IMG/VR virus record: IMGVR_UViG_3300027708_000291
Coordinates: 1 to 24,203 of that record
Length of the DNA stretch: 24,203 nucleotides
Reading direction: 5' to 3' (one strand)
Source of the DNA: a virus
This document shows, one piece after another, positions 2,144 through 24,203 of this stretch. The translations under genes and the position numbers were made by a program. The notes beneath the pieces are model-generated. The model made no database searches, was not told the origin of the DNA, and worked only from the letters and a program-made list of their open reading frames with translations. Each line of letters begins with the position of its first letter. Position 1 is the stretch's first letter.

Positions 2144-2808
2144 GGTTTTGGTCCAAGATAGGTGAGCGAGGCAAAAGCAAGACCAGCCGAAATAGTAGAG
2201 GCTGAACCTCCAAGCCACACTTGACTGAGAACGTAATCACCAGCGAGCATCGGATAAACACCTGTGACGTTGACGTTCAAGTTATAGCCAGTTGCGCCAG
2301 TGAACGAGTAATCAACGTATTGTGAAGTTCCCGCACGAGTATGAACCAAGGCTGCATACACAACTTCTGCGGTGCCCGGTGCAGTAATTTGAGTATTAGC
2401 CGTCGCCATATAGATCCCGTCAATCGGCGCGTTCATTCGCTCAGGATTCGTACCATTCCACATTCCCCACGTATCAATACCTTGCACCGTATTGAAAACT
2501 ACGTTGGTATACGTCGCCAAGGCAATGCTCTGACTCGTCGAACGAGCAACGCGCACATGAGGAACAGGAACACTAGATAAAGTGCCGATGATCATCATGT
2601 CCCGACCATCAACGGCAACCCACACCGCCGACCCCGGCAACGGATACACATGCGACATCCGCGCAATACCCGTCAACTGAGTACTACCACCAGCCAACGT
2701 GATCGTCGACGTAATACCCGAATTCGAGACCACCGTCGCCTGACGTAACCGAACCCCAGCCGGTGCCTCCAACGCCGACATCAGGGAGGTCACATCATAA
2801 TCACTCAC
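2140..2808 (-). CDS. Minor tail protein: OB-like domain plus C1q/jellyroll-like receptor-binding domain
   Basis: A 222 aa protein with two parts. Residues about 18-78 look like a small OB-type baseplate beta barrel, with alternating beta strands ending in PLPGSAVWVAVDGRDMMIIGTLSS. Residues about 85-222 look like a C1q/TNF-like jellyroll used by phages for receptor binding: VVFNTVQGIDTWGMW, NPERMNAPIDGIYMATA, and a terminal strand LAFASLTYLG. It follows the tail hub gene with a GTGA overlap and a GGGA five bases upstream of the GTG start. It is probably attached at the tail tip and contacts the host surface. The fold assignment is by pattern only. Confidence 0.62.
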   Translation of the reverse strand: MSDYDVTSLMSALEAPAGVRLRQATVVSNSGITSTITLAGGSTQLTGIARMSHVYPLPGSAVWVAVDGRDMMIIGTLSSVPVPHVRVARSTSQSIALATYTNVVFNTVQGIDTWGMWNGTNPERMNAPIDGIYMATANTQITAPGTAEVVYAALVHTRAGTSQYVDYSFTGATGYNLNVNVTGVYPMLAGDYVLSQVWLGGSASTISAGLAFASLTYLGPKP

Positions 2809-4052
2809 GATAATCCCAACGCTCGAATCGTAACCGTCGATGACCCCGAAGGAGTCAAAGGTATCTTAACGCAATCAACGATACCCGCGAGGTCGACACC
2901 AGAATCCTGATCATAAACAGCGACCACATCCATCGCATCAAGATACGGATTCGGCACGATCTCCAAATCCATCTGCACACCGGCAACAGAATTCAACAGG
3001 TAAGGAGCGACACCATTCATCTGATCCGCCGACACAAAAATAGGATTAGAAATTTTTGTCGCATTAGCACCAAACGGGCCGTTATATCGCAACGCACACG
3101 ACGGATCAATAATCCAATACCCATCGATACTGGCACCATAATTCGACGGGATCGGTAACGGAGTAAGCAACCCCGTCCCCTCCGCTGTCACAATCACACC
3201 ATTAACGGCTTGCCGTTTGAAGGATCGTTTCAACGACAACAACACACCCGTCGAACCAGAATCCAACGTGTAATCAGGAACATCATCAAAGGATGGATAC
3301 AGGCTCGTCGTCACTCGACCCGCATAATCCATATACAACGCCATCCCCGATGCTTGCGCTATCAGACACGCATCCTGCCACGGCGAAGAATTGCTATCAG
3401 TGCCGAACGTCAACTGCGGAGTCGTATACGTGGTGGACGCCAAATTGAACGTCAACGGGATATTCCACTGATTCAACACGTTAGTAATCGCATCACTAAC
3501 ATTCGTTCCCGCAGCCACCTGATACTGCGTATTCCACGGTTGCGCGAGCATCCCCGACAAATCTTCACCCGACACCGCCAACGTCGTCCCCGTATGATCA
3601 TTCGTGATCGACAGATCCGTCGAACGAAACACTCCCAACGGCACGTCAACCTGACCGAACCCGGCGATGATCGAACGATAAATGGTGATCGTATATTGCG
3701 AGAACGGACCTAACGGATAGTCAGTATCGAAATTGGTTGTCGGCATCAACGAACCCGAATAATCCGGCAACGTCATCTCCATACTGCGACGCACCGACCG
3801 ACGCCCATCGATGGTGACACTACCCGCCGTGGGTTGCAGATTAGCGATCAAGTTACCGTAAACATCAGCGAGCATGCAATACACGTTCATCTCATGAGAT
3901 GAACGCCACGCCGTATCAACCGCAGAAGAGTAAGAACGACTCGGAAAATCGGGTGCAGCCTGCACATAATTTGAGGACGTGCTCGGGATCGTACTATTAC
4001 TGTCACCAACCGCGACAGCAGAAATCCCCTGATTAGAGTTGGACACCACCAT
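2805..4052 (-). CDS. Tail hub / baseplate protein, DUF5047-like
   Basis: A 415 aa protein. After a Ser/Asn-rich N-terminus, it has the pattern of actinophage tail hub proteins. There is a strand with GSVTIDGRRSVRRSMEMTL (about 77-95), then YPLGPFSQYTITIYRS, the plGVFRSTDLSI strand (about 139-150), and LAVSGEDLSGML (about 158-169). A long C-terminal region follows, ending in TVTIRALGLS. These proteins form the ring closing the tail tube and holding the tip, like gp27-type hubs. It follows the giant Dit-like gene with a TGATG junction and lacks a close Shine-Dalgarno, so translational coupling is likely. No lysozyme or peptidase domain is visible. Confidence 0.72.
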   Translation of the reverse strand: MVVSNSNQGISAVAVGDSNSTIPSTSSNYVQAAPDFPSRSYSSAVDTAWRSSHEMNVYCMLADVYGNLIANLQPTAGSVTIDGRRSVRRSMEMTLPDYSGSLMPTTNFDTDYPLGPFSQYTITIYRSIIAGFGQVDVPLGVFRSTDLSITNDHTGTTLAVSGEDLSGMLAQPWNTQYQVAAGTNVSDAITNVLNQWNIPLTFNLASTTYTTPQLTFGTDSNSSPWQDACLIAQASGMALYMDYAGRVTTSLYPSFDDVPDYTLDSGSTGVLLSLKRSFKRQAVNGVIVTAEGTGLLTPLPIPSNYGASIDGYWIIDPSCALRYNGPFGANATKISNPIFVSADQMNGVAPYLLNSVAGVQMDLEIVPNPYLDAMDVVAVYDQDSGVDLAGIVDCVKIPLTPSGSSTVTIRALGLS

Positions 4053-7000
4053 CAGTTCGGGCCAACCTCAACATAATCACACTTGACGAATCGGATCTCA
4101 CGACCAACCGGACCCTGCTGATCATAGGATCGTTTCGTTAACCGGATCCATCGTTGTCGACCAAACGCATCCTGCCACAACAGGGTGCCCTTAAATTCGA
4201 CCACCAGTTTCAACGTGGCCCAATCACTGGCCGTCGTACTAATCAACTGCAAAGTTCCACCCGTACCATACAAGCCGCCAGAGATCGCCAACGAATATCC
4301 ACGACCGCGTGGCTTAAACATGGCAACTTCTTCATCCAGCGCGAACGTCGGCTTATCAGCCATCGACACAGATCGCGACAGGGTAGGCGAATCGATCACC
4401 TTCAACCAGTTTTTACCATCTGAGGTTGACGTGATGGAGATCGCCGGATTGAACGTATCAGTTGTTGACCATGCCGTGGCTAAGGCACCCGTACCAGAGA
4501 CGACGAGCATCTGCGAACGATACGACACGGTAGTACCACGAGCCGCTTCATAATCGTAATACGTTTCCTTCGTATGACCCAACGTGAAGTATTGCAACGT
4601 CGACGTGGTAGCCGTCAGTGAACGATACGCACGTACCGCCTGAGTCGTGACGATGCTATCGGTACGTTGCACCGTAATGCTCGGCAACGTGTAGCCGCCC
4701 GACAACCAACCGAAATATGTTTGTGACGCCGACGCATTCGCAGCACCGAGGAAACCACCATAATACGGCGAGGTCACATTACCGTCGAAATAATCATTGA
4801 CCGTTGCCGACTGTTCAATCAGGACCGCATCAATCCATGTCGAGGTTGACGTGCCAGTGATCGACTTATTCCTGATCCCAATCTGATGTGAGGTTGCCGT
4901 GGCCGTGAATGTGTAGGAGACGCGCACCCACGCATCCTTAGTGGTTGATGTGGTGCCATTACCGATGGTGGCACAGTAGGCAGCGATATCGGGTCCACCC
5001 GTCGGGGTGTAAGCGTAGAAACTGATCGTATACTGCTGACCGATGCTTAAACCAGTCAACGTGTTATACACCGTGGCTCCATCAACGGCGACACCATTTG
5101 ACCATCCGATCAGACCAGATGCCGTACCCGTGAGGTAACGAGTCGTATCTTGAGTGATGGTCGCGGACGCTGGTGTCCAGTTACCGTTATTGGTTTCAAA
5201 TGAAGGATTGGTACATAAGTTGGTTCGCACCGTGATCGATGAATCAATCGGGGTCACCATGTAACGGTCGAAGAAATGAATCTCCCCCGACGTAATACCT
5301 GCTTGCTCAACCATGATGTACGGTTGCGCTGTCACAGCCCATGATGGTGCAGTGAAAATGCCACTCGTGATCGGAGTCCATGCGCTCGTGCTCGTCGTTG
5401 TGGCAGTACCGAAACTGTTACCCACCTGAGCCACACCAGTCTGAGCAGTTGCCGCAGCACCCGTCGCATTTGTCACATCGAACGTAGTCGACGTGACAGC
5501 CGTAATCGTAAAAACTCCAGTATTGCCGACAGCACTCATCGCCGTGATCAACACATTCTGTCCAACGGTAAACGTGTGAGCAGCACTGGTCGTATACCGC
5601 CATGTCGAACCCGACACTAATGCGGCAGTGGTGACCGTGGCCGACACTTGCCTACTAGATCCTGAACCGTCATACCATGCCATGCACAGACGAGCCGTAC
5701 GAGTATTGACCGTCGAGCGCGTAAATGCGGTGCAATAGTAAGCGGCACTGCCCGTCACCGAAAACGTAGGATAACTGACGGCTTGCAAATGTCCGGCAGC
5801 GTAGGCTCGAATCGCTAACGATTGCGTATCTTGATACGCCTGCGGAACAGGAATACCAGCGGAAGCGGTCGGGTTCGATACGTACTGCGGATAACCGATC
5901 TTCGTGACTGTACCCGGACCAGCGACTTGTGCAGCCCCACTAGCATTGGTGATGGTGAATTGTGTCGTACTTGGCACCGTCAACACGTAGAAGGTTCCCT
6001 GATTACCACCAGCCGTCGTACCGGCGATGGTGATCTTATTGCCGATGGTTAACCCATGAGCCGTTGACGTGTTCACTGTGACAGTGGGTGTGATGAAACT
6101 GATGCTGCTGATATTGGTGACAGGAGCCGTCACATCATTGTTAACCGAATCACCCCACGCACCCGCAGGGCTCGTACCCTCCATGTTCGCCGCAGCATTA
6201 GACAACAAATTGTTGAATGCGGGCGGAATTGTCAACGCGACCCGTTGATTGGTACTATCCCACGTCGCCGTGACCGGAACATTCACCGGAGACGAAGATG
6301 CCAACGTCGTCAACGTGAACTGAGCATAAGTAAACGCCAGCGTCGTATTATCGGTGGAATAGGCCGTCGCACCCAGATTTGGTTTACCCACACGGACATA
6401 GGCACGATACGTCTGATTGCTCAACGCCGTCGACGGGATCGTCGAATTGATTGAACTCGATGTTCCCGTTGTACGGTAGGAGGCTTGCGCCGTATACGTA
6501 CTGGTGAATGGAGAAAAACCTATAGTATTATAGATTGAGGCAGGATACACGCACACCTCATAATAGGTTTGCAGTTCCCCATCAGTATCAGCATACGTCC
6601 AGTTAACGGTGGGCTGTTTGCTCAAAGTCAAGGTTGCAGGCGAACCGATACTTGCTGTCGACGAACCATCAGAGACAGTAACTGCCGAGACGGTAGGTAA
6701 GGATCGTGTTTGCACAATCGCATACGCTTCATAGAAACGTACCGCCGAAGCGAATGTGGTCGAATTATCGTATAACCAGATTTGCATCGGCCAACCCGCC
6801 GCATAAGCCGTTGCATCAACGAGACCTCGCGTCCAATTCTGTGTCCCGATGCTATAGGTCACACCATCACTGCCCGTGAATGTCAGCAACCCAACGCCAG
6901 CAAATAATGATGTGGTCAGAGGAGTGAAATAGTCAGAGATCGCGGCAGGAGATCCAGCCCACGAATACGCCACCGACGATGATCGACCAACCGGAGATAC

Positions 7001-7525
7001 CGTCATCTGGAAACGTGATCCGTTAACCGTCACACCACTATTGGCTCGGAGACGCACACCACCATAAACACCACACACCACTTCCGATGGTGCAATGCCC
7101 ACGACCGCTGTACCTGTCGCACCTGATTGGGCGACACCTGACGCATTCGTCACATCGAATGTGGTTGACGCGACAGCCGTCACCGTAAACGTGCCATTAT
7201 TACCAGCCGACAAGCCCGTGATCGTCACACCACAACCAACAGTGAAACCATGCGCGGCAGCAGTCGTATACCGCCATGTTGAACTCGACACCAATGCGGC
7301 AGTCGTCACCGTCGACGTTGAAACACCCGCATATGAAGTACGCAACCCCGGCTCACACTTAAACACCGACGATGAGATAGCAGCACTCGATGCTGTCCGA
7401 GCAATCCAACTAGCATCACTATTATCTGACACGTTACCGGCAAATGTTACCGCACCACCCGTAGCCGTGACAGCACCATTATTGTTGATCAACGATTCGA
7501 TACGTTTCCAGTAATAACCAGCCAT
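4052..7525 (-). CDS. Giant distal-tail (Dit)-like minor tail protein with repeats and a carbohydrate-binding module
   Basis: A 1157 aa, Ser/Thr/Ala-rich beta protein encoded directly after the tape measure (TAATG junction), the usual position of Dit. Visible parts: a repeated module of about 70 residues in three copies (about 71-142, 475-542, 628-701); a fibronectin-III-like stretch with two domains (about 278-440); and a galactose-binding-like domain (about 768-910, opening CTNPSFETNNGNW and closing WIDAVLIEQS, then YFDG). The C-terminal about 75 residues (GTGGTLQLIS through WIRLTKRSYDQQG) resemble the C-terminal domain of Dit-like minor tail proteins. The picture is an evolved Dit loaded with adhesion modules at the tail tip. 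A less specific call would be minor tail protein. Confidence 0.72.
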   Translation of the reverse strand: MAGYYWKRIESLINNNGAVTATGGAVTFAGNVSDNSDASWIARTASSAAISSSVFKCEPGLRTSYAGVSTSTVTTAALVSSSTWRYTTAAAHGFTVGCGVTITGLSAGNNGTFTVTAVASTTFDVTNASGVAQSGATGTAVVGIAPSEVVCGVYGGVRLRANSGVTVNGSRFQMTVSPVGRSSSVAYSWAGSPAAISDYFTPLTTSLFAGVGLLTFTGSDGVTYSIGTQNWTRGLVDATAYAAGWPMQIWLYDNSTTFASAVRFYEAYAIVQTRSLPTVSAVTVSDGSSTASIGSPATLTLSKQPTVNWTYADTDGELQTYYEVCVYPASIYNTIGFSPFTSTYTAQASYRTTGTSSSINSTIPSTALSNQTYRAYVRVGKPNLGATAYSTDNTTLAFTYAQFTLTTLASSSPVNVPVTATWDSTNQRVALTIPPAFNNLLSNAAANMEGTSPAGAWGDSVNNDVTAPVTNISSISFITPTVTVNTSTAHGLTIGNKITIAGTTAGGNQGTFYVLTVPSTTQFTITNASGAAQVAGPGTVTKIGYPQYVSNPTASAGIPVPQAYQDTQSLAIRAYAAGHLQAVSYPTFSVTGSAAYYCTAFTRSTVNTRTARLCMAWYDGSGSSRQVSATVTTAALVSGSTWRYTTSAAHTFTVGQNVLITAMSAVGNTGVFTITAVTSTTFDVTNATGAAATAQTGVAQVGNSFGTATTTSTSAWTPITSGIFTAPSWAVTAQPYIMVEQAGITSGEIHFFDRYMVTPIDSSITVRTNLCTNPSFETNNGNWTPASATITQDTTRYLTGTASGLIGWSNGVAVDGATVYNTLTGLSIGQQYTISFYAYTPTGGPDIAAYCATIGNGTTSTTKDAWVRVSYTFTATATSHQIGIRNKSITGTSTSTWIDAVLIEQSATVNDYFDGNVTSPYYGGFLGAANASASQTYFGWLSGGYTLPSITVQRTDSIVTTQAVRAYRSLTATTSTLQYFTLGHTKETYYDYEAARGTTVSYRSQMLVVSGTGALATAWSTTDTFNPAISITSTSDGKNWLKVIDSPTLSRSVSMADKPTFALDEEVAMFKPRGRGYSLAISGGLYGTGGTLQLISTTASDWATLKLVVEFKGTLLWQDAFGRQRWIRLTKRSYDQQGPVGREIRFVKCDYVEVGPN
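5423..5644 (-). repeat. Module copy 3 inside the giant tail protein
   Basis: Encodes residues about 628-701: TTAALVSGSTWRYTTSAAH, FTVGQNVLITAMS, TGVFTITAVTSTTFDVTNATG. It is much closer to copy 1 than to copy 2, suggesting a more recent duplication or a conversion between copies 1 and 3. Confidence 0.8.
5900..6103 (-). repeat. Module copy 2 inside the giant tail protein
   Basis: Encodes residues about 475-542 with the same pattern but more diverged: STAHGLTIGNKITIAGT, QGTFYVLTV, TTQFTITNASGAAQ. The spacing of the shared motifs matches copies 1 and 3. Confidence 0.72.
7100..7315 (-). repeat. Module copy 1 inside the giant tail protein
   Basis: Encodes residues about 71-142. The pattern is TTAALVSSSTWRYTTAAAHG, then FTVGCGVTITGLS, NGTFTVTAV, and TTFDVTNASG. 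It is close to copy 3 even at nucleotide level; both contain the plus-strand string gtcgtataccgccatgt. Confidence 0.8.
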
Positions 7526-14124: not shown

Positions 14125-14442
14125 TCATACCCCCGGTGAGTTATCAAGGTTGCGGTCGCGCACCGCACGCTCCTCACGCACCATCGCCAACGTCAAAAAA
14201 TAGCCAATCCCATCCACCACCGTATCGGCCTTACTCTTATGAACCTCCCGAGCAATCTTCACCCCCACCATACATAACGCAACCTGCTCCGCCGTCACTT
14301 CACAACCAAGGATCGCCTGCCAGATCAGAGCAGCCCGCGAAAAATCATCCAACGGATGACCATACTCATCATTACGATCACCAGCCACCAACGAGGCAGC
14401 ATGAGCGGCAATATCACACGGGTCAGATAGATGATGCGACAT
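14125..14442 (-). CDS. DUF6378-like small protein
   Basis: A 105 aa helical protein with [21 protein letters not shown] (about 22-42), [20 protein letters not shown] (about 48-67), and [16 protein letters not shown]. This is the pattern of the phage DUF6378 family (D-R-x-x-x-Y-G then a helix with VALxMxxxKxAR). Its role is unknown; the all-helical shape and acidic/His residues recall MazG-like nucleotide pyrophosphatases, but a catalytic EExxE motif is not visible. The ATG at 14442 is preferred over the GTG at 14448 because GAGGAG is five bases upstream. The 5' end overlaps the GP88-like gene by 20 bases. Confidence 0.72.
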
Positions 14443-15229
14443 CGCCACTCCTCGAACTATGACGATCCGCTTGCATCCCAGACAACGACCGACCGTTCAT
14501 TTTTGTGCGCGAGCCCGGATGATTGTTTGCCACAATGCCAACCGCTTCCGGCCCGTAGATTGCCAGCAGATCACTTGCCGCCTGATCAGTGAACCCGGCA
14601 GTCATCAGCGCCTCCTCGTCAGGGAACACATCACAACGACGATCCCCTTCGACAATCAACTTATCCTGCCTGCCCCCATACGAGAAAACATATCTAAAAT
14701 TCTTGGGAGGATCTGGCTCCACTACCTCACGAAACAACGCGACCTCTTTCGTGTAGGCGTAGAAGGTCGTTTGAGGGTTTGCTCGAATCACTCGCAACCA
14801 CCCCTCCAAATAAGTACGCGAGAAGAAATCACCCGTGTCGTGAATACGGACGTGTGCGCCATCAAACCGCTTATGCTTCAATTCTTCAATTAGCAGACTC
14901 TCCCACTCTTCTTGCGCTTCAAGCACCATCAGCAAGTTACGAGTATGAGCCGCTCGAACATTCTTAAATATGTAGGTGCCACGTAGTGCGTAACATAACT
15001 CTACGCATGCGCCTGCGCTAGGGCACACGTTCATCTTGCTGCCATCGGGTAACTCGACAACCCACGCTGGTAACGACCAAGTGAAAATGCCGTCGCGTCT
15101 GAGATCAGCATTGTTCGAGGTGAGTAGCCTCTTCACAGGATCATTAGATCTGCGAGACGCACCTGCGGGTAGGAAGCGAACGTCAACACTCCCGGCATCG
15201 ACGATTCGCCCCGCGTCTGCTTCCACCAT
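14423..15229 (-). CDS. GP88-family protein
   Basis: A 268 aa protein of the GP88 family (phage gene product 88 type). It shows [20 protein letters not shown] (about 35-54), then [18 protein letters not shown] with C69, C75 and C79. [22 protein letters not shown] (about 126-137), FYAYTKE (about 156-162) and ANNHPGSR follow. The spaced cysteines ending in CYA, together with the TGDFFS and YTKE blocks, recall the DUF5131 group suspected to bind iron-sulfur clusters; an enzymatic role is inference only. The start at 15229 is supported by GGAGG six bases upstream, giving a 97-base overlap with the metallophosphoesterase gene. A shorter start at the GTG near residue 32 is possible. Confidence 0.85.
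14448..14453 (-). promoter_or_regulatory. Ribosome binding site deciding the start of the DUF6378-like gene
   Basis: GAGGAG on the minus strand, five bases upstream of the ATG at 14442 and inside the 3' end of the GP88-like gene. Confidence 0.65.
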
Positions 15230-16353
15230 TCAGAACCTCCATCTAAGGCTGGGCATTGAACCCAGATGCAGCCACCCCAATCAGCGACACGCATATGATG
15301 ATAATGACCCGTCACCAAAATGTCAGCATCACCCACCGGCTGCTTCCCACCCGCAGCCCGCTCATACCAGCGACGCAACTTCGCTTCCGCCGTCCCCGAC
15401 TCACGAGCCACATGCCCATGCGTCACCCCAACAATCCAACCCGCCGCCATCGCCGTCACCGTCAAATGATCCGGCGGAATCACGATCTTCACATGACCAA
15501 ACGTGTCCGGGTTCACCGCAAGGATCTCCGCGACCTGCTCGACAACAGCCAAATCATCATTATCACCAAACGACGTATACGCCTTACCTGATCGGCCACG
15601 ATTCTCACCATGATTACCACCGACCGCTAACACGATCACCTCATCAAACAGGCGCGACCATCGCATCAACGCATCACGCAACAATCGTCGCGTCACCTTC
15701 ATCTGTTCACGACGATCCAATTCGACACCGAAAGTTTGCATCGCATAAAACCCGACACACCCTTCAACCGAATCGCCGGTCCACTCCACCATCAACGTCC
15801 CCAACGGGCGACCCAGTTTACGCAGATCACGCACCCGACGTTCCACATCAATGATCGCCTGCTGAATCCGTAACACCGTCCCCCGCAACCCATCACCATC
15901 AGGTTTACCGATCTGCCAATCACCTAAGACCACATGGAACACGCCCTCACCCATCGGCGCGGGCTTCGCGGGTTTTGCTTTCAACACATCCGCGAGCAAC
16001 TTCTCCACATCAATATCAGGACCGACATCACCCTTACGTCGAACGACTCGTGCTTTCCATTGACGCATCCGAAGGATCGCACCCTCAGGACCGGGAGCAT
16101 CCCACGCATTAAACAATACCGGCTCAACGACAGCGAACTTGTCAGGATCAAGATCCCACACCGCTAACACATGCGACCAGTCAGGATGAGCATCACCAGC
16201 CGCAGCCGATGTCGTCAGTGTCCCCTCATCACCCTTCCACTCCACACCCGGTCGCCACATCGCATCACGATCACGACGCGGCGTAACATTAGCCGACTCT
16301 CCCTCGACAGGGGCAAGCAAATCATCTAACGCATCATCAATGCTCATGGACAT
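15133..16353 (-). CDS. Metallophosphoesterase (calcineurin-like)
   Basis: A 406 aa protein. Residues about 138-375 carry the ordered metallophosphoesterase motifs: GDWQIG (D145, Q147 at the usual DxH position), GDSVEG (D194), GGNHGENRG (N247, H248), THGH (H312, H314) and TGHYHH (H350, H352). These would bind two metal ions and hydrolyse phosphodiesters or phosphomonoesters. The substrate is unknown; nuclease activity is plausible. Gln in place of the first-motif His is a variation seen in some members. Residues 1-130 are a family-specific N-terminus opening MSMSIDDALDDLL. The ATG at 16353 has GGGA five bases upstream; the in-frame ATG at 16347 forms an ATGA junction with the HTH gene and is an alternative. 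Confidence 0.87.
   Translation of the reverse strand: MSMSIDDALDDLLAPVEGESANVTPRRDRDAMWRPGVEWKGDEGTLTTSAAAGDAHPDWSHVLAVWDLDPDKFAVVEPVLFNAWDAPGPEGAILRMRQWKARVVRRKGDVGPDIDVEKLLADVLKAKPAKPAPMGEGVFHVVLGDWQIGKPDGDGLRGTVLRIQQAIIDVERRVRDLRKLGRPLGTLMVEWTGDSVEGCVGFYAMQTFGVELDRREQMKVTRRLLRDALMRWSRLFDEVIVLAVGGNHGENRGRSGKAYTSFGDNDDLAVVEQVAEILAVNPDTFGHVKIVIPPDHLTVTAMAAGWIVGVTHGHVARESGTAEAKLRRWYERAAGGKQPVGDADILVTGHYHHMRVADWGGCIWVQCPALDGGSEWWKQTRGESSMPGVLTFASYPQVRLADLMIL
15236..15240 (-). promoter_or_regulatory. Ribosome binding site of the GP88-like gene inside the preceding gene
   Basis: GGAGG on the minus strand, six bases before the ATG at 15229. It is embedded in codons for DGGSEWW of the metallophosphoesterase, and supports the long 97-base overlap. 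Confidence 0.65.
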
Positions 16354-16785: not shown

Positions 16786-17012
16786 GGATCAACCTCATCA
16801 CCACATGTCTTACAAAATGATTGCTCCGCTCCCATCGTCGCTACCACAAGCCGATCCATGTGGACACATTCCATCGGTGGTTCCCATTCAGGATCCTCCG
16901 CGTCACGAGAAGAATCCAACGCTTTCTTCAATAATCCATGCGTAGCGATCAATGAACGGATCGCACCATCCATCGCCTGATACGCAAGCAACGCCACCTC
17001 ACGATCATTCAT
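16782..17012 (-). CDS. Small putative zinc-binding protein
   Basis: A 76 aa protein. The N-terminal half (residues 1-40) is helical. The C-terminal half has C49-x-H51 and C67-x2-C70 (MECVHMDRLVVATMGAEQ, then FCKTCGDEVD), a plausible single zinc site. Similar short proteins with a CxH...CxxC tail and the VxxTTMG-like segment occur in actinophages. The function is unknown to me. The start overlaps the tail terminator stop (ATGA) and the stop overlaps the Com-like start (ATGA), so it is embedded in the operon and begins the non-structural module. Confidence 0.7.
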   Translation of the reverse strand: MNDREVALLAYQAMDGAIRSLIATHGLLKKALDSSRDAEDPEWEPPMECVHMDRLVVATMGAEQSFCKTCGDEVDP

Positions 17013-17410
17013 AACGCAACCTGCACATTAAAATTAGTCGACACTAAGGGACGATGCTCCACATCAGCACCCATCGGCGACACGCTCCCGTTAGGTTCGA
17101 CCCGTAACACACGAACCCCGGACAGGGTTTGATCAGTCACCGCCGCGAGTAGTAGCCGAATATTGTTCACAGCATCACGAGCCGTCGGATAATCATCACG
17201 ACTGGCCCGCGCAATGATCATGATGCTCGGTTGATCAATCTGGATCCCCCCCGCACCCATCCCGAACCGGGGAGCCAACCCGGAATCTTCCATGATCGTC
17301 ACGCACACGTCAGGCTTATCGGGCAAGATGCCGAGGAACAGGTCAACACCGAGGGTCCATGATGTTTGAGCATCAACATAATCACCCAAGGATTCCAATA
17401 CCGTCGCCAT
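17009..17410 (-). CDS. Tail terminator protein
   Basis: A 133 aa protein in the usual place for the siphophage tail terminator, directly after the gp10-like neck gene. Pattern: ESLGDYVDAQTSW near the start, LGILPDKPDVCVTIMEDSG (about 27-45), then SIMIIARASRDDYPTARDAV and a final strand STNFNVQVAL. This matches the alternating alpha/beta layout of terminator proteins annotated as minor capsid protein. It would cap the tail tube and join it to the head. The ATG at 17410 (TGATG junction, GGGGG six bases upstream) is preferred to the GTG one codon earlier. Confidence 0.78.
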   Translation of the reverse strand: MATVLESLGDYVDAQTSWTLGVDLFLGILPDKPDVCVTIMEDSGLAPRFGMGAGGIQIDQPSIMIIARASRDDYPTARDAVNNIRLLLAAVTDQTLSGVRVLRVEPNGSVSPMGADVEHRPLVSTNFNVQVAL

Positions 17411-17799
17411 CACATACCCCCTAGTTCGCTACGGAACATGTGTTCCACTCGGGCTGCAAGACGATCACCCATGCCCTGCGCTTGCCTGTCGACAGGTTTC
17501 TTCAAATAGCCTGACGTGGTGGGGGGAGCATGGCGCATCGGAATATCGTGAACGTATTGCGCGTAAGGTGCTGCAGATCCGCCGTAATAGATTTCAACCA
17601 TGATCCCACTACCCGTACGTCGTGGGGCTTTCACCGACCCTGAGCCTTTCAAATAGCCATCACGCACGGGTGTCAATTCCTGCGATACGAGGAACGCTTC
17701 ATTCGCTTCCTCCCATAAGGCCGCTTCCATGTAACGATTCACATCACGACCCGACCCCTGAATCAGATTCATCAGTTGATTCCAACCCTGCAAATCCAT
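17410..17799 (-). CDS. HK97 gp10-like neck protein
   Basis: A 129 aa protein of the HK97 gp10 type, between head stopper and tail terminator. It has a helical N-terminus (MEAALWEEANEAFLVSQ) followed by LTPVRDGYLKGSGSVKAP, the hallmark segment of the family (TPVxxGxLxxS). Then come YYGGSAAPYAQYVHDI and RHAPPTTSGYLKKPVD before a final helix. It is a head-tail joining protein. The ATG at 17799 forms TGATG with the previous stop and has GGTGG six bases upstream; a GTG at 17802 is the alternative. Confidence 0.87.
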   Translation of the reverse strand: MDLQGWNQLMNLIQGSGRDVNRYMEAALWEEANEAFLVSQELTPVRDGYLKGSGSVKAPRRTGSGIMVEIYYGGSAAPYAQYVHDIPMRHAPPTTSGYLKKPVDRQAQGMGDRLAARVEHMFRSELGGM

Positions 17800-18137
17800 C
17801 ACTGACCACCGAACCCGATCACCGAATGATGTGGCCCATCCTCATCATTAACCGTCGTAAACGATGTGATCGTCACATCCTGCCCATCGGGTAAAGTCAT
17901 CCGATAATCATCAGTTACCTCATCGGCAACCCCATACACGATGGCTCGACCCGCTTCAATCACCTCGCGACCCTTCGAGTCTCGAACCACCCGAGACCCC
18001 CACACCAGACGAGCCCGATACTGTGTCCCCGTGGAGGAGAACGTACGTTTGCCATACTTGTCCACGGATGCTTGCGGATACACCGTCACGGTGTCCTGCA
18101 TCAACTCTTCAAAATCTGCATCGACAGCCATGATCAC
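17799..18137 (-). CDS. Head closure / stopper protein
   Basis: A 112 aa beta-rich protein in the position of the head-closure (stopper) protein. VTVYPQASVDKYGKRTF is followed by YRARLVWG and the segment DEVTDDYRMTLPDGQDVTI, as in SPP1 gp16-like and HK97 gp7-like stoppers. It would seal the portal channel after DNA packaging and bind the tail. The start is uncertain: the GTG at 18137 (GTGA overlap) or the ATG at 18131; neither has a strong Shine-Dalgarno. Confidence 0.8.
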   Translation of the reverse strand: MIMAVDADFEELMQDTVTVYPQASVDKYGKRTFSSTGTQYRARLVWGSRVVRDSKGREVIEAGRAIVYGVADEVTDDYRMTLPDGQDVTITSFTTVNDEDGPHHSVIGFGGQ

Positions 18138-18883
18138 TGCCCCGGATTATCATGCAGCCCGATAAAGAATTCGCCGTTCGGGTAGAGCACGCCACGGTTC
18201 GCCAAACTTGCGAGGGCTTGCGGATTGGCTTTGGGGAATGGTGGTTCACGTCGACTCGCGAGTTCAAGGAATCGTTCGGCGAGCCCCAAGTATTGTTGTG
18301 ACTTATTGGAGTAGGACCGTGAGATGCTCATGTCGCCCACCGATTTAGATGTGCTATCAGCGAGGCGAGCGAATTGTCCAGCCAATGCGTAACATGCATC
18401 ATGAGCAGCCTGATACACCGACCCGTTCGTTTCGGACAGGTGGAAAGCGATCTCGGCATCGGACAGGTAATAGTCGGTACTGTCAGTGTCATGGATCAGA
18501 TAACGCACCGTGTCGAGGGGACGCAGGGAGGGATCACCGGAGTAGGAGAATGTTCCTTTGCCTGATCCGCTAACGGTCAGGGTCATGTACCCATCGTTCG
18601 GGGCGGTAAGGTTCCGCGAGCCGAGAGTGACAACGAATTGAGCGAAATAGTTACCAGCGGTCAGGAGTGCCGCGTCACCAGCCGACCATGTGTAGGTGAC
18701 GATTCCTGCTGTTGCTGGTGAGGAGATTGTTGCCGAGGTTGAGATGAGCGTGGTCATGGTCGCGGGAGCATACACGCGGAAACTAGCGGTGCCGCCAGTC
18801 AAGTCGACAGCAGCACCATCAACGGTGATGGTTCGGGTGATGATAGGTAGACGGTCGCCTACCCCAATCGTAATGTCGCTCAC
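18134..18883 (-). CDS. Head-tail adaptor with an extra N-terminal BppU/Ig-like domain
   Basis: A 249 aa protein in two parts. Residues about 1-106 look like a beta-sandwich of the BppU N-terminal type: VGDRLPIITRTITVDGAAVD, TASFRVY, GIVTYTWSAGDAALLTAGNY, then FVVTL. After SGSGKG, residues about 112-249 match actinophage adaptor proteins: YSGDPSLRPLDTVRYLIHDTD, YLSDAEIAFHL, AACYALA-like helices (ACYALAGQFARLAD), VGDMSISRSYSNKSQQY. Adaptors normally begin near this YSGDP segment, so the N-terminal domain appears to be an added fusion. It would form the ring below the portal and could display the extra domain at the neck. The GTG start has GGAGG seven bases upstream and a GTGA overlap. Confidence 0.8.
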   Translation of the reverse strand: MSDITIGVGDRLPIITRTITVDGAAVDLTGGTASFRVYAPATMTTLISTSATISSPATAGIVTYTWSAGDAALLTAGNYFAQFVVTLGSRNLTAPNDGYMTLTVSGSGKGTFSYSGDPSLRPLDTVRYLIHDTDSTDYYLSDAEIAFHLSETNGSVYQAAHDACYALAGQFARLADSTSKSVGDMSISRSYSNKSQQYLGLAERFLELASRREPPFPKANPQALASLANRGVLYPNGEFFIGLHDNPGQ

Positions 18884-21546
18884 TTATGAACCTCCACTTT
18901 ATTAGCACTACCTTTAGGGTAGACGCTTCCAGCGCCTTGCGACACTTCGGCGCGTCCTGTATTTCCTGATGCTTGACTGCTCCCTTTCGCCCCGGCAACG
19001 CTCATCCCGGCTCCTATCCCTGCCGCATGCACAGGCGGTGGAGTTGCGAGGATCACATCCACGAATAGGGATTCGCTGAGGGTGAGTGTTGCGCTGAATG
19101 TGCGCGTGCGAGTCGTTGCCCGATTCAGAGCCTCAGTCAAGGTGACTGTATCGGCGAGCGAACGTAGCCGCGCCGTGTTCCGTGTCAATCCGTCAGTCAG
19201 GGTGAGCGTATCCGCCGTGGAGCGGAGTCGTACCTGAGTGGCTGTGATCGTTTCGGCGAGTGTCAGCGTCTCTACCGGAGCGAGAGTGACAGTCAGGGAT
19301 CGCGCTAGTGAATCGGCAGTCGTGATTGTGTCCACGACTGTCCGAGGTCGCGTAGCGTTGCGCGTTACAGTGTCAGACAGGGCGAGCGTGTCACTGATCG
19401 CCCGAGCATCTCCAAGTGGAGAACTGATCGTGTCAGATAGTGCAAGCGTATCCGTAACAGTTCGAGTGCAGGCGCTAGAGCGCGTCAACGAGTCAGTCGC
19501 CGTTACCGTATCGCTTAAGGATTGAGTCGTAACGAGAACCCGAGCCACGGTGTCAGTCAATGTCAGCGAGTCACTTACCGTCTTTACGCCTTGCGCGTAA
19601 ACACCAGCCACCGTATCGCTTAACGTGAGCGCATCAGCAATGCTGCGCGATAATGCTCCCCCCGCAATCGTAGTGTCGGATGTAGTCAGCGAATCAGAGA
19701 CGGAACGAGCGAGCGTCACCCCTGCCGCTGTTTTAGAGGGCAGGATGCTGGCCGAAAACGCTGAGTAGTTACTCCACGATGCGCCTACGCTGTCACCGGA
19801 GAACCATGATCCCAGAGTGCTTGACTGTTCCAGCAATGTACCGTCGGCCCACATCGCCATTCCGACTGGATACACGCTAGAGGGATCAACAAGATCATGG
19901 GTACATCCGACGTAATACGTTCCGGCTGGAGCAGTCGCGGTGAAAGAGACTCGCGTCCAGACCGTATTGGAAATATCGAAATCAGCACTCTGAGACGTGG
20001 AGTAGTTTATGTTAAAAATGCTGCGCCAGAAGATACGCAGATGCGCCTTCATTCCCGTTCGATCCGCTTTCAAATACACGCTGTACGTGTACGGTAAACC
20101 TTCCGAGGCAGGCCCGTAAGTAGGACTAGCCGTTGAGTTGACAGCCTGTTTTGGCCCTCCCGAAACCCCGAAACCGGCCCCGGTCGTTGAATGCTTGATC
20201 GAACTTGTGCCCGACCATGACACGCTCGTGTCTAACGTCAATGTGCCGTTCGTTGGATTGTTGAAGTAGTTACTTGCCGATGTCGCGTCGGGATCAGCGA
20301 TGAGGTTGACGCGAGTCGTGGCCGCCGCCGCTGACGTGGAAATGGTTTGACCCGCACCAACATTGGCGATGGGGCCAGCGCCGGGTAACGCATACGCTCC
20401 GCCTGAGCCTTGCCACAAACCAACCCCGTCAACATATACCGCGTCGCTAGTATTTCCTGTTCCCCACAGAATGAACGGTTGGACGGCAGTTGCCTCCGCA
20501 GGAGGAATCGCGCTTGCGCTGATGCGCCGCCATTCAGTTGTTGACATAGGCAATCCCGACACCGGCTGTGTGACGGATGATCCGATAGATGTGCCGTTAG
20601 CGCGATACCAATAGAACCCGACACTTGCGTATCGTGTTCCAACACTGCTGCGAACATGCGCCACCATCGTGTAAGGAATTCCAGCGGTGATGGGGGTCGT
20701 CGCTGGAGAAGTACCGCCGTTGGTTCTGATCTGCGCTGAGCCAGCGCCCGTGAAAGTGACGAGGAGACTATTGGTGCCGTACAGTGCTTGCGCGGAAGAT
20801 AAGGCAACGGTCGTGTTGGAGTTATTAGTCCAAGCACTAGCGTCGGTTTCCATGCTCGCTTGATTAGCGGTCAAAATGTTGCCTGTTGCATCGCCGCCAC
20901 CCGCTCCAGCCCATGCGCCACCGGCGGAGTCCCCATCAAAATATGCACCACCGCCGTAGGTGGATCGTTCAATCAGTACCCCGTCAATGTAGCCAGCATC
21001 GGTCGCGGCCCCGGTAGTTATCATAGCGATATACGTTGTGCAGTACGCGGTATTTTGAGGCGCAAAATATGTACCGCCAATGCGAGTCCAACTTGACGAA
21101 CTAACTGTTGTGATCGGCGTGTTGTAGTTTACGAGGTTTTTGCCTTGAGCATCGTAAAAGTAAACGATGATGTACCACTGTCGAGTTCCGACATCGTTGC
21201 GGATGTAACAACTGGCTGTGTAGTACTGGTTACCGCCTTGCGGTAGGTTCCAGTTTCCTACGATCCCCAGACCGGTAGTGGTGTTTCCAGCCACCACATA
21301 ACATGACGCTGAGCCAGTAACTGCTTGAGTCGTGGATCGGCTCGGCGACGCATTGTTATAGGTTGACCAACCTGACAGGTCATACTCAAACGACGGATTC
21401 CAGCAATAGTTGATTCGCGCATCCTGCGCCACCAACGAGTCATACGCAGTCAAGCCACGCGACTGAGCAGCGAACGTGGACGGTTGAGGAACAGCACCAA
21501 ATGGAGGAACGAGTGCTACTGGCACCGTTCCTAACGAGGCAGGCAT
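18880..21546 (-). CDS. Large adhesin-like structural protein with three sugar-binding-like domains and 20-residue repeats
   Basis: An 888 aa protein. Residues about 45-206, 222-390 and 410-595 are three galactose-binding-like (CBM 4/9-type) domains: openings such as YCWNPSFEYDLSGW, closings YIDGVLIERS, YVDGVGLWQG and WADGTLLEQS. Two are followed by YFDGDSAGGAW or WFSGDSVGASW. Residues 613-833 are eleven repeats of about 20 residues of the type RSxSDTLTLSDTV. A Gly/Ser/Ala tail ends in VEVHK. The composition is that of a fibre or spike with a glycan-binding head. The gene lies between the major capsid gene and the adaptor, not among tail genes, so a head or neck fibre is the inference. A minor tail protein displaced in gene order is the alternative. 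Start by coupling to the preceding stop. Confidence 0.72.
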   Translation of the reverse strand: MPASLGTVPVALVPPFGAVPQPSTFAAQSRGLTAYDSLVAQDARINYCWNPSFEYDLSGWSTYNNASPSRSTTQAVTGSASCYVVAGNTTTGLGIVGNWNLPQGGNQYYTASCYIRNDVGTRQWYIIVYFYDAQGKNLVNYNTPITTVSSSSWTRIGGTYFAPQNTAYCTTYIAMITTGAATDAGYIDGVLIERSTYGGGAYFDGDSAGGAWAGAGGGDATGNILTANQASMETDASAWTNNSNTTVALSSAQALYGTNSLLVTFTGAGSAQIRTNGGTSPATTPITAGIPYTMVAHVRSSVGTRYASVGFYWYRANGTSIGSSVTQPVSGLPMSTTEWRRISASAIPPAEATAVQPFILWGTGNTSDAVYVDGVGLWQGSGGAYALPGAGPIANVGAGQTISTSAAAATTRVNLIADPDATSASNYFNNPTNGTLTLDTSVSWSGTSSIKHSTTGAGFGVSGGPKQAVNSTASPTYGPASEGLPYTYSVYLKADRTGMKAHLRIFWRSIFNINYSTSQSADFDISNTVWTRVSFTATAPAGTYYVGCTHDLVDPSSVYPVGMAMWADGTLLEQSSTLGSWFSGDSVGASWSNYSAFSASILPSKTAAGVTLARSVSDSLTTSDTTIAGGALSRSIADALTLSDTVAGVYAQGVKTVSDSLTLTDTVARVLVTTQSLSDTVTATDSLTRSSACTRTVTDTLALSDTISSPLGDARAISDTLALSDTVTRNATRPRTVVDTITTADSLARSLTVTLAPVETLTLAETITATQVRLRSTADTLTLTDGLTRNTARLRSLADTVTLTEALNRATTRTRTFSATLTLSESLFVDVILATPPPVHAAGIGAGMSVAGAKGSSQASGNTGRAEVSQGAGSVYPKGSANKVEVHK
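19048..19710 (-). repeat. Eleven tandem 20-residue (about 60-base) coding repeats
   Basis: Encodes residues 613-833 of the 888 aa protein. Units start with R-S/T, followed by SDTLTLSDTV-like cores; the seventh, eighth and eleventh are diverged. Ten units are 20 residues and one is 21. The strict period and Thr/Ser/Asp/Leu content suggest a regular beta stalk. Confidence 0.85.
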
Positions 21547-21549
21547 CGG

Positions 21550-22086
21550 CTATGCCAGCGTAGACATGTTCTCCACCAATAGATGGTGGCAGGTGATCGT
21601 GTTCGATGCGGAGGCCGTACCCCACTGCGCTCCGATCACCAGAGACTTCGCCGTGGTCGTATCCACCGTTACGGCAGCGTTCGTAGTCTGCGGTAGGGGT
21701 AGATGCGTTACTGCCGCAACTGTCGTACCAATATCAAGCCATCCATGACCGAACACGGAGCCGGATGTACCCGTAGCGCGTACCGTGAACACGTACTCTA
21801 AATGCCACGGCATATTCGTGACCGACGAGGCGGTAGTAATCGCTGACGATACGACGATGGCCGTACCACCGACGCCGCCATAGTAGACGCCAAACAGTAG
21901 GGTTGGAGTCGTAGTGGTAGAGAACACGCCATGTGCGGTGATACGAAACGATGAACCAACCGTCAACAGGCCAGCCGGGATCGTGTAATCAGGAACAGGG
22001 GAGATCGCCGTCAACGTCGTAGAGTTCGCCAACGCCGTACCCGGCCCATACACCGGGAAGTTCACAAGCGAGTCGTAACCGGGCAT
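21550..22086 (-). CDS. Structural beta protein, possible receptor-binding or head-decoration protein
   Basis: A 178 aa, Thr/Ala/Val/Gly-rich beta protein without charged clusters. Strands such as GSSFRITAHGVFSTTTTPTL, LLFGVYYGGVGGTAIVV and PWHLEYVFTVRATG are typical of jellyroll domains in phage virion proteins (TIPAGLLTVGSSFRITAHG is a recurring phage pattern). No membrane segment or enzyme motif. It has a strong AAGGAG seven bases before the ATG at 22086, so expression should be high. It lies in the adhesin-like block between capsid and connectors, three bases before the 888 aa gene. Confidence 0.65.
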   Translation of the reverse strand: MPGYDSLVNFPVYGPGTALANSTTLTAISPVPDYTIPAGLLTVGSSFRITAHGVFSTTTTPTLLFGVYYGGVGGTAIVVSSAITTASSVTNMPWHLEYVFTVRATGTSGSVFGHGWLDIGTTVAAVTHLPLPQTTNAAVTVDTTTAKSLVIGAQWGTASASNTITCHHLLVENMSTLA

Positions 22087-22097
22087 CGTGAATCTCC

Positions 22098-22487
22098 TTA
22101 CGAAAGAGTGATCGTGTGCGTGATCGTGAGCGTGTCACCCGACGCCGACAGGGTAGCGGTTGGGGACAATGCTGTCTCATACACCATCGTTCCAGCACTA
22201 GAGGCGGTGAACAAACCGATCTTCGCCACCGTCACCGGCAACGAATCTGAACCGTTCGCCGTGAACGTTTTAGTCAACGTCAATACTGATGTGCCCGCCG
22301 TGTGCGCATACGTTGCCAGAGCGCGAACCAAACCACCGCTCGCGGTCGCAATCTCACCCGTCAACGTCGTATCAGCAGGAGCAGGTGTGGTCGTGTTCGC
22401 AGTCAACGCCAGATACTGCGCCGTTGCAGTGCCACCAGCACCAGCGATCTGAGCGGCCACAAAATCTTTCCCAGCATTCGTAATCAT
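22098..22487 (-). CDS. Tail-fibre-like small structural protein
   Basis: A 129 aa protein opening MITNAGKDFVAAQIAG, a start seen in small fibre-like or minor structural proteins of actinophages. It continues with YLALTANTTTPAPADTTLTG, LVRALATYAHTAGTS, LTKTFTANGSD, and a C-terminal beta strand TLTITHTITLS. It is probably a virion surface component. The start is an ATG at 22487 with AGGA about six bases upstream, overlapping the previous stop. Homologues I recall lie near fibre genes; here it sits in the head module. Confidence 0.68.
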   Translation of the reverse strand: MITNAGKDFVAAQIAGAGGTATAQYLALTANTTTPAPADTTLTGEIATASGGLVRALATYAHTAGTSVLTLTKTFTANGSDSLPVTVAKIGLFTASSAGTMVYETALSPTATLSASGDTLTITHTITLS

Positions 22488-22495
22488 TAGTTGTC

Positions 22496-22756
22496 CTAAG
22501 CATTCAGGCCGGGAACCGGCATCGACGGTGCGCCATAATGGGAACAGAGACGCGCTTGGAGATCAGCATCAGAACAGGCAACCCATGTTGGGCTTGTCGA
22601 TGATTGAGCAGCCCAAACCCCGTTAGGGTCAGTCACCGTGATGAACGCTTCATCCGAACTGATCCCGTCAGGGAATGTGACGTACGTGATCTGCTCATCA
22701 GTGGAGCCAGCCACGTCATCATGGGTGGGAGCAACATTGCCGAACTGCGCTTTCAC
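22496..22756 (-). CDS. Small post-capsid protein
   Basis: An 86 aa acidic protein. The segments SSDEAFITVTDPNGVWAAQS and SPTWVACSDADLQARLCSHY (Trp, then Ser-Pro-x-Trp-Val, then L-x-x-L-x-x-x-Y/F) match small proteins that often follow the capsid gene in actinophages. Their role is not established to me. The GTG at 22756 is chosen because GGAGG lies four bases upstream. The frame is open further, to 22909, but that part overlaps the capsid gene and the hairpin and is not expected to be translated. Confidence 0.7.
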   Translation of the reverse strand: MKAQFGNVAPTHDDVAGSTDEQITYVTFPDGISSDEAFITVTDPNGVWAAQSSTSPTWVACSDADLQARLCSHYGAPSMPVPGLNA

Positions 22757-22765: not shown

Positions 22766-22778
22766 GAAGAATGGTGAA

Positions 22779-22810
22779 GGGGCAGGCACCCCCGAAAGGA
22801 TGCCCGCCCC
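22779..22810 (-). terminator. Strong hairpin after the major capsid gene
   Basis: As minus-strand RNA, a 13-bp stem (two G-U pairs, otherwise paired) of GGGGCGGGCAUCC against GGGUGCCUGCCCC with a six-base loop. It begins 19 bases after the capsid stop codon. The following bases, UUCACCAUUCUU, are only moderately U-rich, so it may be a leaky terminator or an mRNA 3' stabiliser that keeps capsid expression above that of the downstream genes. Confidence 0.68.
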
Positions 22811-22829
22811 TCCGGTTACGGAATCGTTA

Positions 22830-23810
22830 TTAGGCGACGCAACTAGCGAAGTACACGCCCAGATCGGCAGCGACAACCTTATTGTCGAAGGCCACTTCAC
22901 CTTCAACACGGGTCGACTTCAAGTGCTCCATACGGAACGATGACGTTCCGATGGTGGCACCCAAACCACCCGACACGCCAGTCCATCCGAAGATGTAACC
23001 AGCCGACGGAGTAAGCAGGCCGGGGCTCGACGCAACATGTCCGAGCCATGCACCCTTACCGAAGGTCAGGGCGTAAGCACCCGTGGCACCTTCATTGTTG
23101 GTGGCCTTCACTGACTTGGAGACCAGCACACGATCAATCTCGAACATGCGAGCGATCATGTCGGTCGTGATGGTCTGCGCCGACGTGTACTTGATCCGGT
23201 CAACCAGATCAGGGTGGTGACGCAACTGACGGAACGTCTCGTAGCCGAGCACGAGAGTGTTGGCTTCCATGCCGGTGGTCGTGAGGATCTGCGCCTTGCC
23301 AGCCTCAACGTCGATGATCGGATCCGAGTTAGCGTAATCCGACCACTGAATGAACGACGTGCCAGCGGTTGCACTCGACGCCACGCCGGTGTAATCCTTA
23401 GCCCACACCGAGGTGGTCAGGTAGTCGCTGACGAACTGCAATTCACGACGCAACATTAGGCGACGAGTGATGAACTCGCTGGCCTCACGCAACGGTGACA
23501 GCGGAGCATCCGAGTTCGCCATCGTCTGATCGTCGACATCCTTATGGAAGGCGAACACGTCGGCTGAGTAGGTGTCGCTGGACAGGTTGAATCCGCCACC
23601 GGCTGACTCAGTACCCGGAGCGCGGCGCTGAGCCTCGTCACGGAACCAGTCATTCTTGGTGTAGACGAAATACTTGTTGCTCTTCTTGTCTACGGGAACG
23701 ACAGGGAAAACCTTGTCGGCGATGAAATTATCCTGCTGTTGCATCCAAGCAACAGAGATGTTAGTCAGGATCGCATCAATGTGAACCTGATTGATGGACG
23801 GCTGAGGCAT
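22830..23810 (-). CDS. Major capsid protein
   Basis: A 326 aa protein of the HK97-fold capsid type. The N-terminus INQVHIDAILTNISVAWMQQ and the block FIADKVFPVVPVDKKSNKYF are typical of a widespread phage capsid family, as are WFRDEAQRRAPGTESAGGGF, the LMLRRELQFVSDYL helix and the late segment RVEGEVAFDNKVVAADLGVY. It forms the icosahedral shell. It follows the DUF2190-like decoration gene by 25 bases and has the best Shine-Dalgarno in the window (AAGGAG, eight bases before the ATG at 23810), as expected for the most abundant virion protein. No N-terminal scaffold domain is visible. Confidence 0.92.
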   Translation of the reverse strand: MPQPSINQVHIDAILTNISVAWMQQQDNFIADKVFPVVPVDKKSNKYFVYTKNDWFRDEAQRRAPGTESAGGGFNLSSDTYSADVFAFHKDVDDQTMANSDAPLSPLREASEFITRRLMLRRELQFVSDYLTTSVWAKDYTGVASSATAGTSFIQWSDYANSDPIIDVEAGKAQILTTTGMEANTLVLGYETFRQLRHHPDLVDRIKYTSAQTITTDMIARMFEIDRVLVSKSVKATNNEGATGAYALTFGKGAWLGHVASSPGLLTPSAGYIFGWTGVSGGLGATIGTSSFRMEHLKSTRVEGEVAFDNKVVAADLGVYFASCVA

Positions 23811-23835: not shown

Positions 23836-24203
23836 TTATGCAGCCCGGTGCGGGGCAGCGCAGTTGATGAGGGCGGTTCCGATTTCACCATCGGCACCGG
23901 GGGCTGAGAGGATCGTGCCCACGATGTACTTGGTGGTGTCGGTGCCGGGGGTGAGGGCAGCAGCCTTACCAGCGGTCGTGGTGCCAACCTGAGCACCAAC
24001 AGAGATGGAGGCAGATCCGATGATCTTGCTACCACCGATGACCGTGATCTCGGCTTCCTGACCAGACAGGGGAGCGTTCTGGAGAACACCCACCGGAATG
24101 TCGGTCGCGGCTGAACAGACGACAGCCTGTCCGCTGCTGAGTTTCACGAACTTGTACTGTGCAGCCGACAGGTCAGCCCCCGCGACGAGGGTGATCTTGA
24201 CGG
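23836..24203 (-). CDS. DUF2190-like capsid decoration protein, 5' end cut by window edge
   Basis: 121 residues are visible, from an open 5' edge at 24203 to TAA at 23836-23838. The first visible residues VKITLVAGADLSAAQYKFV are close to the normal start of DUF2190-type proteins, so only a few residues are probably missing. Gly/Ala/Thr-rich beta strands follow: QAVVCSAATDIPVGVLQN, GSASISVGAQVGTTTAGKAA, TKYIVGTILSAPGADGEIGT. Such proteins trimerise on the capsid surface and stabilise it. A GTG at 24147 is internal and not the start. It stands just before the capsid gene, as in lambda-like head modules. Confidence 0.83.
   Translation of the reverse strand, partial: VKITLVAGADLSAAQYKFVKLSSGQAVVCSAATDIPVGVLQNAPLSGQEAEITVIGGSKIIGSASISVGAQVGTTTAGKAAALTPGTDTTKYIVGTILSAPGADGEIGTALINCAAPHRAA

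Follow-up and report, generated by a model that had tools for sequence, protein, structure and literature searches.

We analyzed a viral DNA fragment of 24,203 bases (IMG/VR record IMGVR_UViG_3300027708_000291, positions 1 to 24,203; hereafter, the window) and focused on the genes that lie between its major capsid protein gene and its head-tail adaptor gene. All head and tail genes of the window are located on the minus strand. Read from the 5′ side, they comprise a phrog_673 gene, the capsid gene, the gene cassette studied here, the adaptor, the stopper, a neck protein, the tail terminator, two tail tube genes, the tape measure and the tail-tip genes. A first-pass annotation of the window had described the cassette as three fibre or adhesin genes encoding 129, 178 and 888 residues, and we recovered these open reading frames (ORFs) at the coordinates claimed, all on the minus strand (22098..22487, 21550..22086 and 18880..21546, respectively). 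However, the gene count was one short, as an 86-residue gene (22496..22756, minus strand) belongs to the cassette as well. It starts with a GTG at 22756, just 3′ of GGAGG, a strong Shine-Dalgarno sequence, and ends at 22496; it had been listed as a 137-residue ORF because its frame stays open back into the capsid gene. With this gene added, the three genes described before become cassette genes 2 to 4, and the probable anchor domain is the N-terminus of gene 5, the adaptor. The cassette genes are closely spaced, and the 888-residue gene and the adaptor gene share 4 bp.

The 888-residue protein, encoded by cassette gene 4, is the candidate adhesin. The three galactose-binding-like domains previously ascribed to it were confirmed as three related domains resembling carbohydrate-binding module (CBM) family CBM_4_9, which were detected by profile at residues 45-206, 229-386 and 413-585 (independent E-values of 4e-54, 3e-35 and 1e-37) and match one another in blastp (E-values of 6e-11 and 1e-7). 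One window copy scored 23.7 bits against Pfam CBM_4_9 (PF02018), below the gathering cut-off of 25.9 bits, whereas relatives with the same domain reached 84-114 bits; therefore, we termed the domains CBM_4_9-like. The long repeat stalk that had been noted was also found, with a 20-residue period and about ten repeats between about residues 626 and 830. Its self-identity was 0.30 at a lag of 20, compared with a maximum of 0.21 among 200 shuffles. Tandem Repeats Finder detected no DNA-level tandem repeat in the gene, and thus the repeat exists at the protein level only. A conserved C-terminal segment follows the stalk, which spans about 200 residues. Two or three CBM_4_9-like domains were also found in the 1157-residue tail-tip protein (4052-7525), at about residues 563-931 of the ORF, and are 29-32% identical to those of the 888-residue protein. 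As judged from these sequences, one type of carbohydrate-binding fold appears to serve both the tail tip and the cassette.

The other cassette proteins are small. Relatives of the 86-residue protein are encoded 5′ of relatives of the 129-residue protein, or are fused to them, in approximately half of the loci, and the two share a single ORF in L099, L105, L106, L107, L109 and L110; the 86-residue protein is likely an anchor or partner of the 129-residue protein. The latter, encoded by cassette gene 2, scored 25.0 bits against Pfam Gp80 (PF23140, GP4 fibre I), below the 27-bit gathering cut-off, and 14 of the 41 members of its family matched Gp80 with E<0.01. For the 178-residue protein, encoded by cassette gene 3, no convincing sequence match was obtained in Pfam, PHROG or the PDB. 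Its relatives were found solely beside relatives of the 129-residue protein (L008, L009, L094 and L128), and it is probably a fibre domain. The close relatives L009 and L090 keep the same gene order (capsid, then proteins of 112, 134, 182, 694 and 253 residues), and the 129- and 178-residue proteins of the window are 84% identical to their counterparts there.

Beyond these close relatives, the genes recur as a module. Relatives of the 129-residue protein were present in 42 viral contigs, almost all of which have unrelated capsids, and a single-protein genome scan found further relatives in four actinobacterial genomes (Actinomadura, Sphaerisporangium, Acrocarpospora and Herbidospora). A stalk-repeat protein occurs in 32 of the 43 loci with the 129-residue family but in none of the 78 capsid relatives without that family; since different phage groups are compared here, this contrast represents an association and not a mechanism. 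In 12 loci, whose capsids belong to four PHROG families (phrog_1005, 29, 1357 and 10), the start of the module lies 0-2.2 kb 3′ of the capsid gene; in two loci, the module precedes it. The synteny search proposed in the first-pass annotation recovered the cassette in conserved order in close relatives and the module next to unrelated capsids. In tblastn searches against 50,697 phage records, nothing was found with the 888-, 178- and 129-residue proteins, so cultured phages almost entirely lack the module; one relative of the 129-residue protein gave a single weak match, in a Chlorobiaceae phage.

The adaptor gene (18134..18883, minus strand; phrog_1732) encodes a fused protein of 249 residues, with a BppU-type domain from residue 1 to about residue 90, a linker and an adaptor domain (residues 111-246). 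The extra beta domain suspected on the adaptor proved to match Pfam BppU_N (PF10651) with 23.6 bits, above the cut-off of 23.1 bits, and formed a beta-sandwich in the structural model. Among 38 adaptors of the clade, only those of the window, L007 and L009 carry this extension, whereas the others start at the adaptor domain, and its occurrence in the clade coincides with the presence of the cassette. Moreover, a stand-alone BppU-type gene is located directly 3′ of the stalk gene in seven unrelated module loci (L092, L106, L108, L110, L118, L121 and L125). The L110 gene passes Pfam BppU_N with 31.1 bits and is followed by a gene for a neck-type protein; the other six are weaker and rest on an iterated profile. 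These sequences are most simply explained by a fusion, in the window lineage, of the final module gene with the adaptor gene. L094 contains all four cassette genes, and no stop codon separates its stalk ORF from a head-to-tail adaptor domain; being a single metagenome contig, L094 provides support and not proof. This 1155-residue ORF (L094:2002-5466) combines an N-terminus resembling an adhesin, an extended stalk with repeats of the 20-residue type and the head-to-tail adaptor domain.

Both homology and fold relate the adaptor domain of the window to solved phage necks. By phmmer, it matched the Sf14 connector (9c39_C) with an E-value of 3.4e-4, and a profile of the clade adaptors matched the Sf17 orthologue of Sf14 gp35 with an E-value of 3e-12 (nine-protein set). 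The whisker-holding adapter gp37 was considered as the Sf14 homologue and rejected, as the match is to the head-to-tail connector gp35. We then compared AlphaFold2 models of the adaptor and the 129-residue protein with solved structures using Foldseek and/or VIA-align. In the adaptor model, a disordered linker connects a beta-sandwich (residues 2-86) to a domain of four helices, and this helical domain matched the neck connectors of Sf14, Bas63, phiCD508 and a Pakpunavirus (Foldseek top three; VIA-align Z 6.8-10). The 129-residue protein was modeled confidently as a beta-sandwich, with a predicted local distance difference test (pLDDT) score of 89. Its VIA-align matches included the HFTV1 tail (Z 10.9), the phi812 baseplate arm (9.9), Bas63 connector chain K (9.7), A511 gp105 (9.6), Sf14 neck chain K (9.5) and GP4 fibre I (8jou_a; 8.0). 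The alignment with the Sf14 chain (9c39_K), which is the whisker protein gp31, covered 104 residues at 3.0 Å. The solved necks of Sf14 and Bas63 therefore each contain one component that matches the adaptor and another that matches the 129-residue protein. Sequence searches of the PDB with the 129-residue family profile, the 86-residue family profile and the 178-residue protein were empty; only the fold links the 129-residue protein to whiskers.

The position of the cassette was further examined in 80 viral contigs with capsids 73-86% identical. Where both genes are present, the gap between the capsid and adaptor genes ranges from 42 bp to 9.3 kb; seven gaps are shorter than 70 bp, and most others hold 11-17 ORFs. 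Where the content could be recognised, it resembles fibre genes (Gly-rich domains, collagen repeats, CBMs and fibre N-terminal domains), and the gap is a variable accessory slot for adhesins in this clade. Fibre-like genes fill 2-3 kb of the slot in the cultured Arthrobacter phages Laroye (gp27-30), Wheelbite, Kovu and Ottawa, whereas Shrooms and Waltz have none there. Laroye, Shrooms and Waltz have a common isolation host. Since Laroye and Shrooms share this host while differing in the slot, a slot fibre cassette would not be needed for infecting it. The two phages are 93% identical in the capsid, 89% in the stopper, 86% in the neck protein, 88% in the terminator and 83-88% in the tail-tip proteins, but only 67% in the adaptor, a divergence that could stem from fibre contact or from a recombination border. 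In the freshwater-type capsid relatives (L031, L032, L050, L057, L063, L073 and others), the slot is occupied by as many as 17 fibre-like genes, both small and large; the gene order is conserved while glycine-rich and fibre genes are swapped, and this slot is a hotspot of adhesin variation. Slot proteins of 1306-1307 residues with six CBM-like domains in a row are encoded at L046:3047-6964 and L027:5210-9130.

From the observed gene content, domains, fusion, folds and recurrence, we infer a putative arrangement of the virion neck. We consider it likely that the cassette genes encode neck fibres (“whiskers”); the earlier proposal of head or neck fibres remains the best-supported reading, with the neck favoured over the capsid shell by the adaptor fusion, the Sf14 and Bas63 matches and the recurrence of the module. 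The four genes at 18880-22756 would encode accessory neck fibres, and the adaptor gene that follows would provide their docking ring. Twelve fused adaptor subunits would place a collar of BppU-type domains around the portal-adaptor junction, a ring position suggested by the relatives. The 86- and 129-residue proteins may form a proximal, bead-like part, as judged from GP4 fibre I, Sf14 gp31 and the phage A-1(L), with the 178-residue protein as a further fibre domain. The 888-residue protein would join the collar via its repeat stalk and conserved C-terminus and point its three predicted carbohydrate-binding domains outward; the BppU-type domain encoded after the stalk in other loci suggests this orientation. 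Such fibres would hold the virion reversibly on surface glycans before or while the tail tip binds irreversibly, serving as an accessory grip that is probably dispensable for infection. More tentatively, with our doubt slightly outweighing our confidence, we propose that a mobile neck-fibre module (the 86-, 129- and 178-residue proteins, the CBM-stalk protein and the BppU-type ring domain) moves among unrelated actinobacterial phages, and that its ring domain, covalently held in the adaptor of the window, may make the neck ring itself a built-in and swappable adhesin dock distinct from the tail tip.

Several observations weigh against a neck location, and some of them would suit tail-tip or side tail fibres whose genes were merely relocated to the head operon, an alternative that we regard as unlikely. 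The place of a gene does not reveal the place of its product in the virion. Proteins of the BppU family are known above all from tail baseplates, in which CBM modules are also common. The 129-residue fold is common to baseplate arm proteins and matches the phi812 and A511 arms and the HFTV1 tail at equal Z; on this model, the fold alone cannot separate neck from baseplate, so the fold search that the first-pass annotation had proposed agreed with neck whiskers without singling them out. The fused adaptor model is modest (overall pLDDT 63, with the best helices at 80-87), and its BppU-type half (pLDDT about 55-77) gave no clear fold match and none to BppU. The L094 stretch between stalk and adaptor is BppU-like by eye and was not significant by profile (hhalign probability 7%). 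Additionally, 29 of the 43 loci of the 129-residue family have no recognised capsid gene nearby, and their upstream PHROG tally is mixed (terminase, exonuclease, partition and portal), so that capsid adjacency of the module is not universal. Laroye gp28 (L132:2588-4330), a fibre encoded in the same slot between capsid and adaptor, carries the name “minor tail protein”, which may be misleading, and belongs to PHROGs of tail proteins. The CBM family of the cassette also occurs in the phage's own tail-tip protein; a separate tail-tip set lies after the tape measure, in line with a system distinct from the tail tip, but the cassette fibres and the tail tip may share targets and may not be fully distinct.

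That tail-tip set is complete, which argues against relocated tail genes, as does the finding that covalent attachment of the BppU-type domain to the neck adaptor coincides exactly with the presence of the cassette. Moreover, the slots of Laroye and Shrooms differ while their tail-tip proteins are 83-88% identical, and where the module could be placed, it follows unrelated capsids and not tape measures. Head fibres proper, on the capsid shell, occur in phi29 (gp8.5) and RcGTA, and the location of the cassette directly 3′ of the capsid gene would agree with fibres of this kind. We nevertheless consider them improbable here, as a shell accessory protein is already encoded 5′ of the capsid gene (23836-24201, minus strand; phrog_673, with counterparts named head fiber protein) and the neck is indicated both by the fused adaptor and by the fold shared with whiskers. 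The great variation of slot content among relatives might also suggest a depository for moron-like or degrading cargo genes whose proteins are not in the virion. However, nearly all recognised slot content is fibre-like, and the cassette genes of the window are tightly packed on one strand, with the 888-residue gene overlapping the adaptor gene, which makes cargo very improbable. We retain neck fibres as the preferred interpretation.

Neck fibres of several phages resemble this predicted structure in part. The neck passage structure (NPS) of lactococcal phages (936 group and TP901-1) combines a ring of BppU-type domains, placed over the adaptor, with fibres tipped by CBMs, and is non-essential (PMC6669499, PMC10747895). 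In TP901-1, a ring of BppU-type NPS domains was fitted over the adaptor (PMC10747895), and in 936 phages the fibres end in CBMs, with one neck CBM having bound the host (PMC6669499). The window, as read from its genes, shares with the NPS a BppU-type beta-sandwich predicted at the level of the portal and adaptor, a fibre with predicted CBM_4_9-like domains and a patchy, accessory distribution. In the NPS, the fibre protein itself begins with the BppU-type domain, and a predicted trimeric coiled coil comes next. In the window, by contrast, the adaptor carries this domain, while four other genes encode the fibre, which has a stalk of 20-residue repeats; no BppU-N-type domain was found in the 888-residue fibre with Pfam. 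The necks of Sf14 (gp30/gp31; PDB 9C39) and Bas63 (9MT4) are similar in that gp35 is homologous to the adaptor domain and gp31 has the fold of the 129-residue protein. Sf14 whiskers attach through the adapter gp37 (PMC11821841). The window proteins gave no phmmer match to Sf14-type gp30 or gp37. Ounavirinae whisker genes lie in the head operon (in the sister phage Sf17), as in the window. However, Sf14 and Bas63 are myophages, and no CBM or repeat stalk has been described for their whiskers.

GP4, whose fibre I (gp80, PF23140; PDB 8JOU) is related to the 129-residue protein by the near-threshold Pfam score and the fold match given above, is a podophage, and we know of no BppU-adaptor fusion in it. 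Its fibre I has been described as a fibril tied to the collar (PMC13243795). In cyanophage A-1(L), gp82, gp81 and gp80 form a three-gene neck fibre with an anchor, a repeated bead and a distal carbohydrate-binding module (PMC10966104). We liken it to the window from the published description only; it is anchored on a pentadecameric neck ring, and its genes lie far from the head operon. The CBM of this neck fibre did not bind the host (PMC10966104), which calls for caution about an adhesin role. Siphophage LSH1 encodes an adhesin, a GP4-like fibril and an Ig-like protein (gp34-36) that are present in only half of its relatives (PMC13243795). This module resembles the cassette in its linked accessory genes, but it follows the lysis module, not the head module, and its adhesin has a beta-helix lyase-like domain.

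The remaining features of the window provide the context of the cassette. The major capsid protein (326 residues; 22830..23810, minus strand) matched phrog_1005, major head protein, with an E-value of 6e-98, is 53-59% identical to capsids of Arthrobacter and Microbacterium phages, and was used as the synteny anchor; it lies outside the proposed fibre. An RNA hairpin at the boundary between the capsid gene and the cassette (22777..22815, minus strand) has a stem of approximately 17 bp and a minimum free energy of -38.8 kcal/mol over 78 nt (z -4.2), and none of 200 shuffled controls was as stable. In all 86 clade capsid loci tested, the 80 nt 3′ of the capsid gene fold below -18 kcal/mol, and these hairpins are strong despite unrelated sequences. 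The hairpin is likely an attenuator, terminator or processing site and would fit high capsid expression and lower fibre expression.

On the other side of the adaptor, also on the minus strand, lie the head-tail stopper of the neck (17799..18137; phrog_3881 and phrog_793 connector matches), the tail terminator (17009..17413; Pfam Phage_tail_terminator_6, E-value of 3e-8) and the tape measure (7525-11115). The tail-tip genes for 1157 and 415 residues (2805..7525) are located 3′ of the tape measure and match phrog_1887, tail protein, and, in tblastn, minor tail and baseplate hub proteins; a third tail-tip gene, of 222 residues, follows them. A 406-residue phosphoesterase/exonuclease-like gene (phrog_284) and an overlapping 268-residue gene split the structural gene run at 14423-16353. 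The tail tube genes are in tandem (244 and 148 residues), and the larger one (12197-12931) has a weak C-terminal match to F5/8 type C, a galactose-binding-like domain; judging by this match, the tail tube C-terminus is a possible third glycan-binding site on the virion.

Overall, the kind of structure proposed here is known from neck whiskers and the NPS, and what is new is the adaptor-fused ring domain together with a modular adhesin slot. Because cultured Arthrobacter phages with and without a slot cassette share one host, they offer a laboratory system for testing what neck or head fibres contribute to adsorption. How BppU-type collars attach to the phage neck has been stated as unknown (PMC10747895). 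The natural fusion of a BppU-type domain to the adaptor suggests a direct answer to this question and predicts the stoichiometry of the collar.

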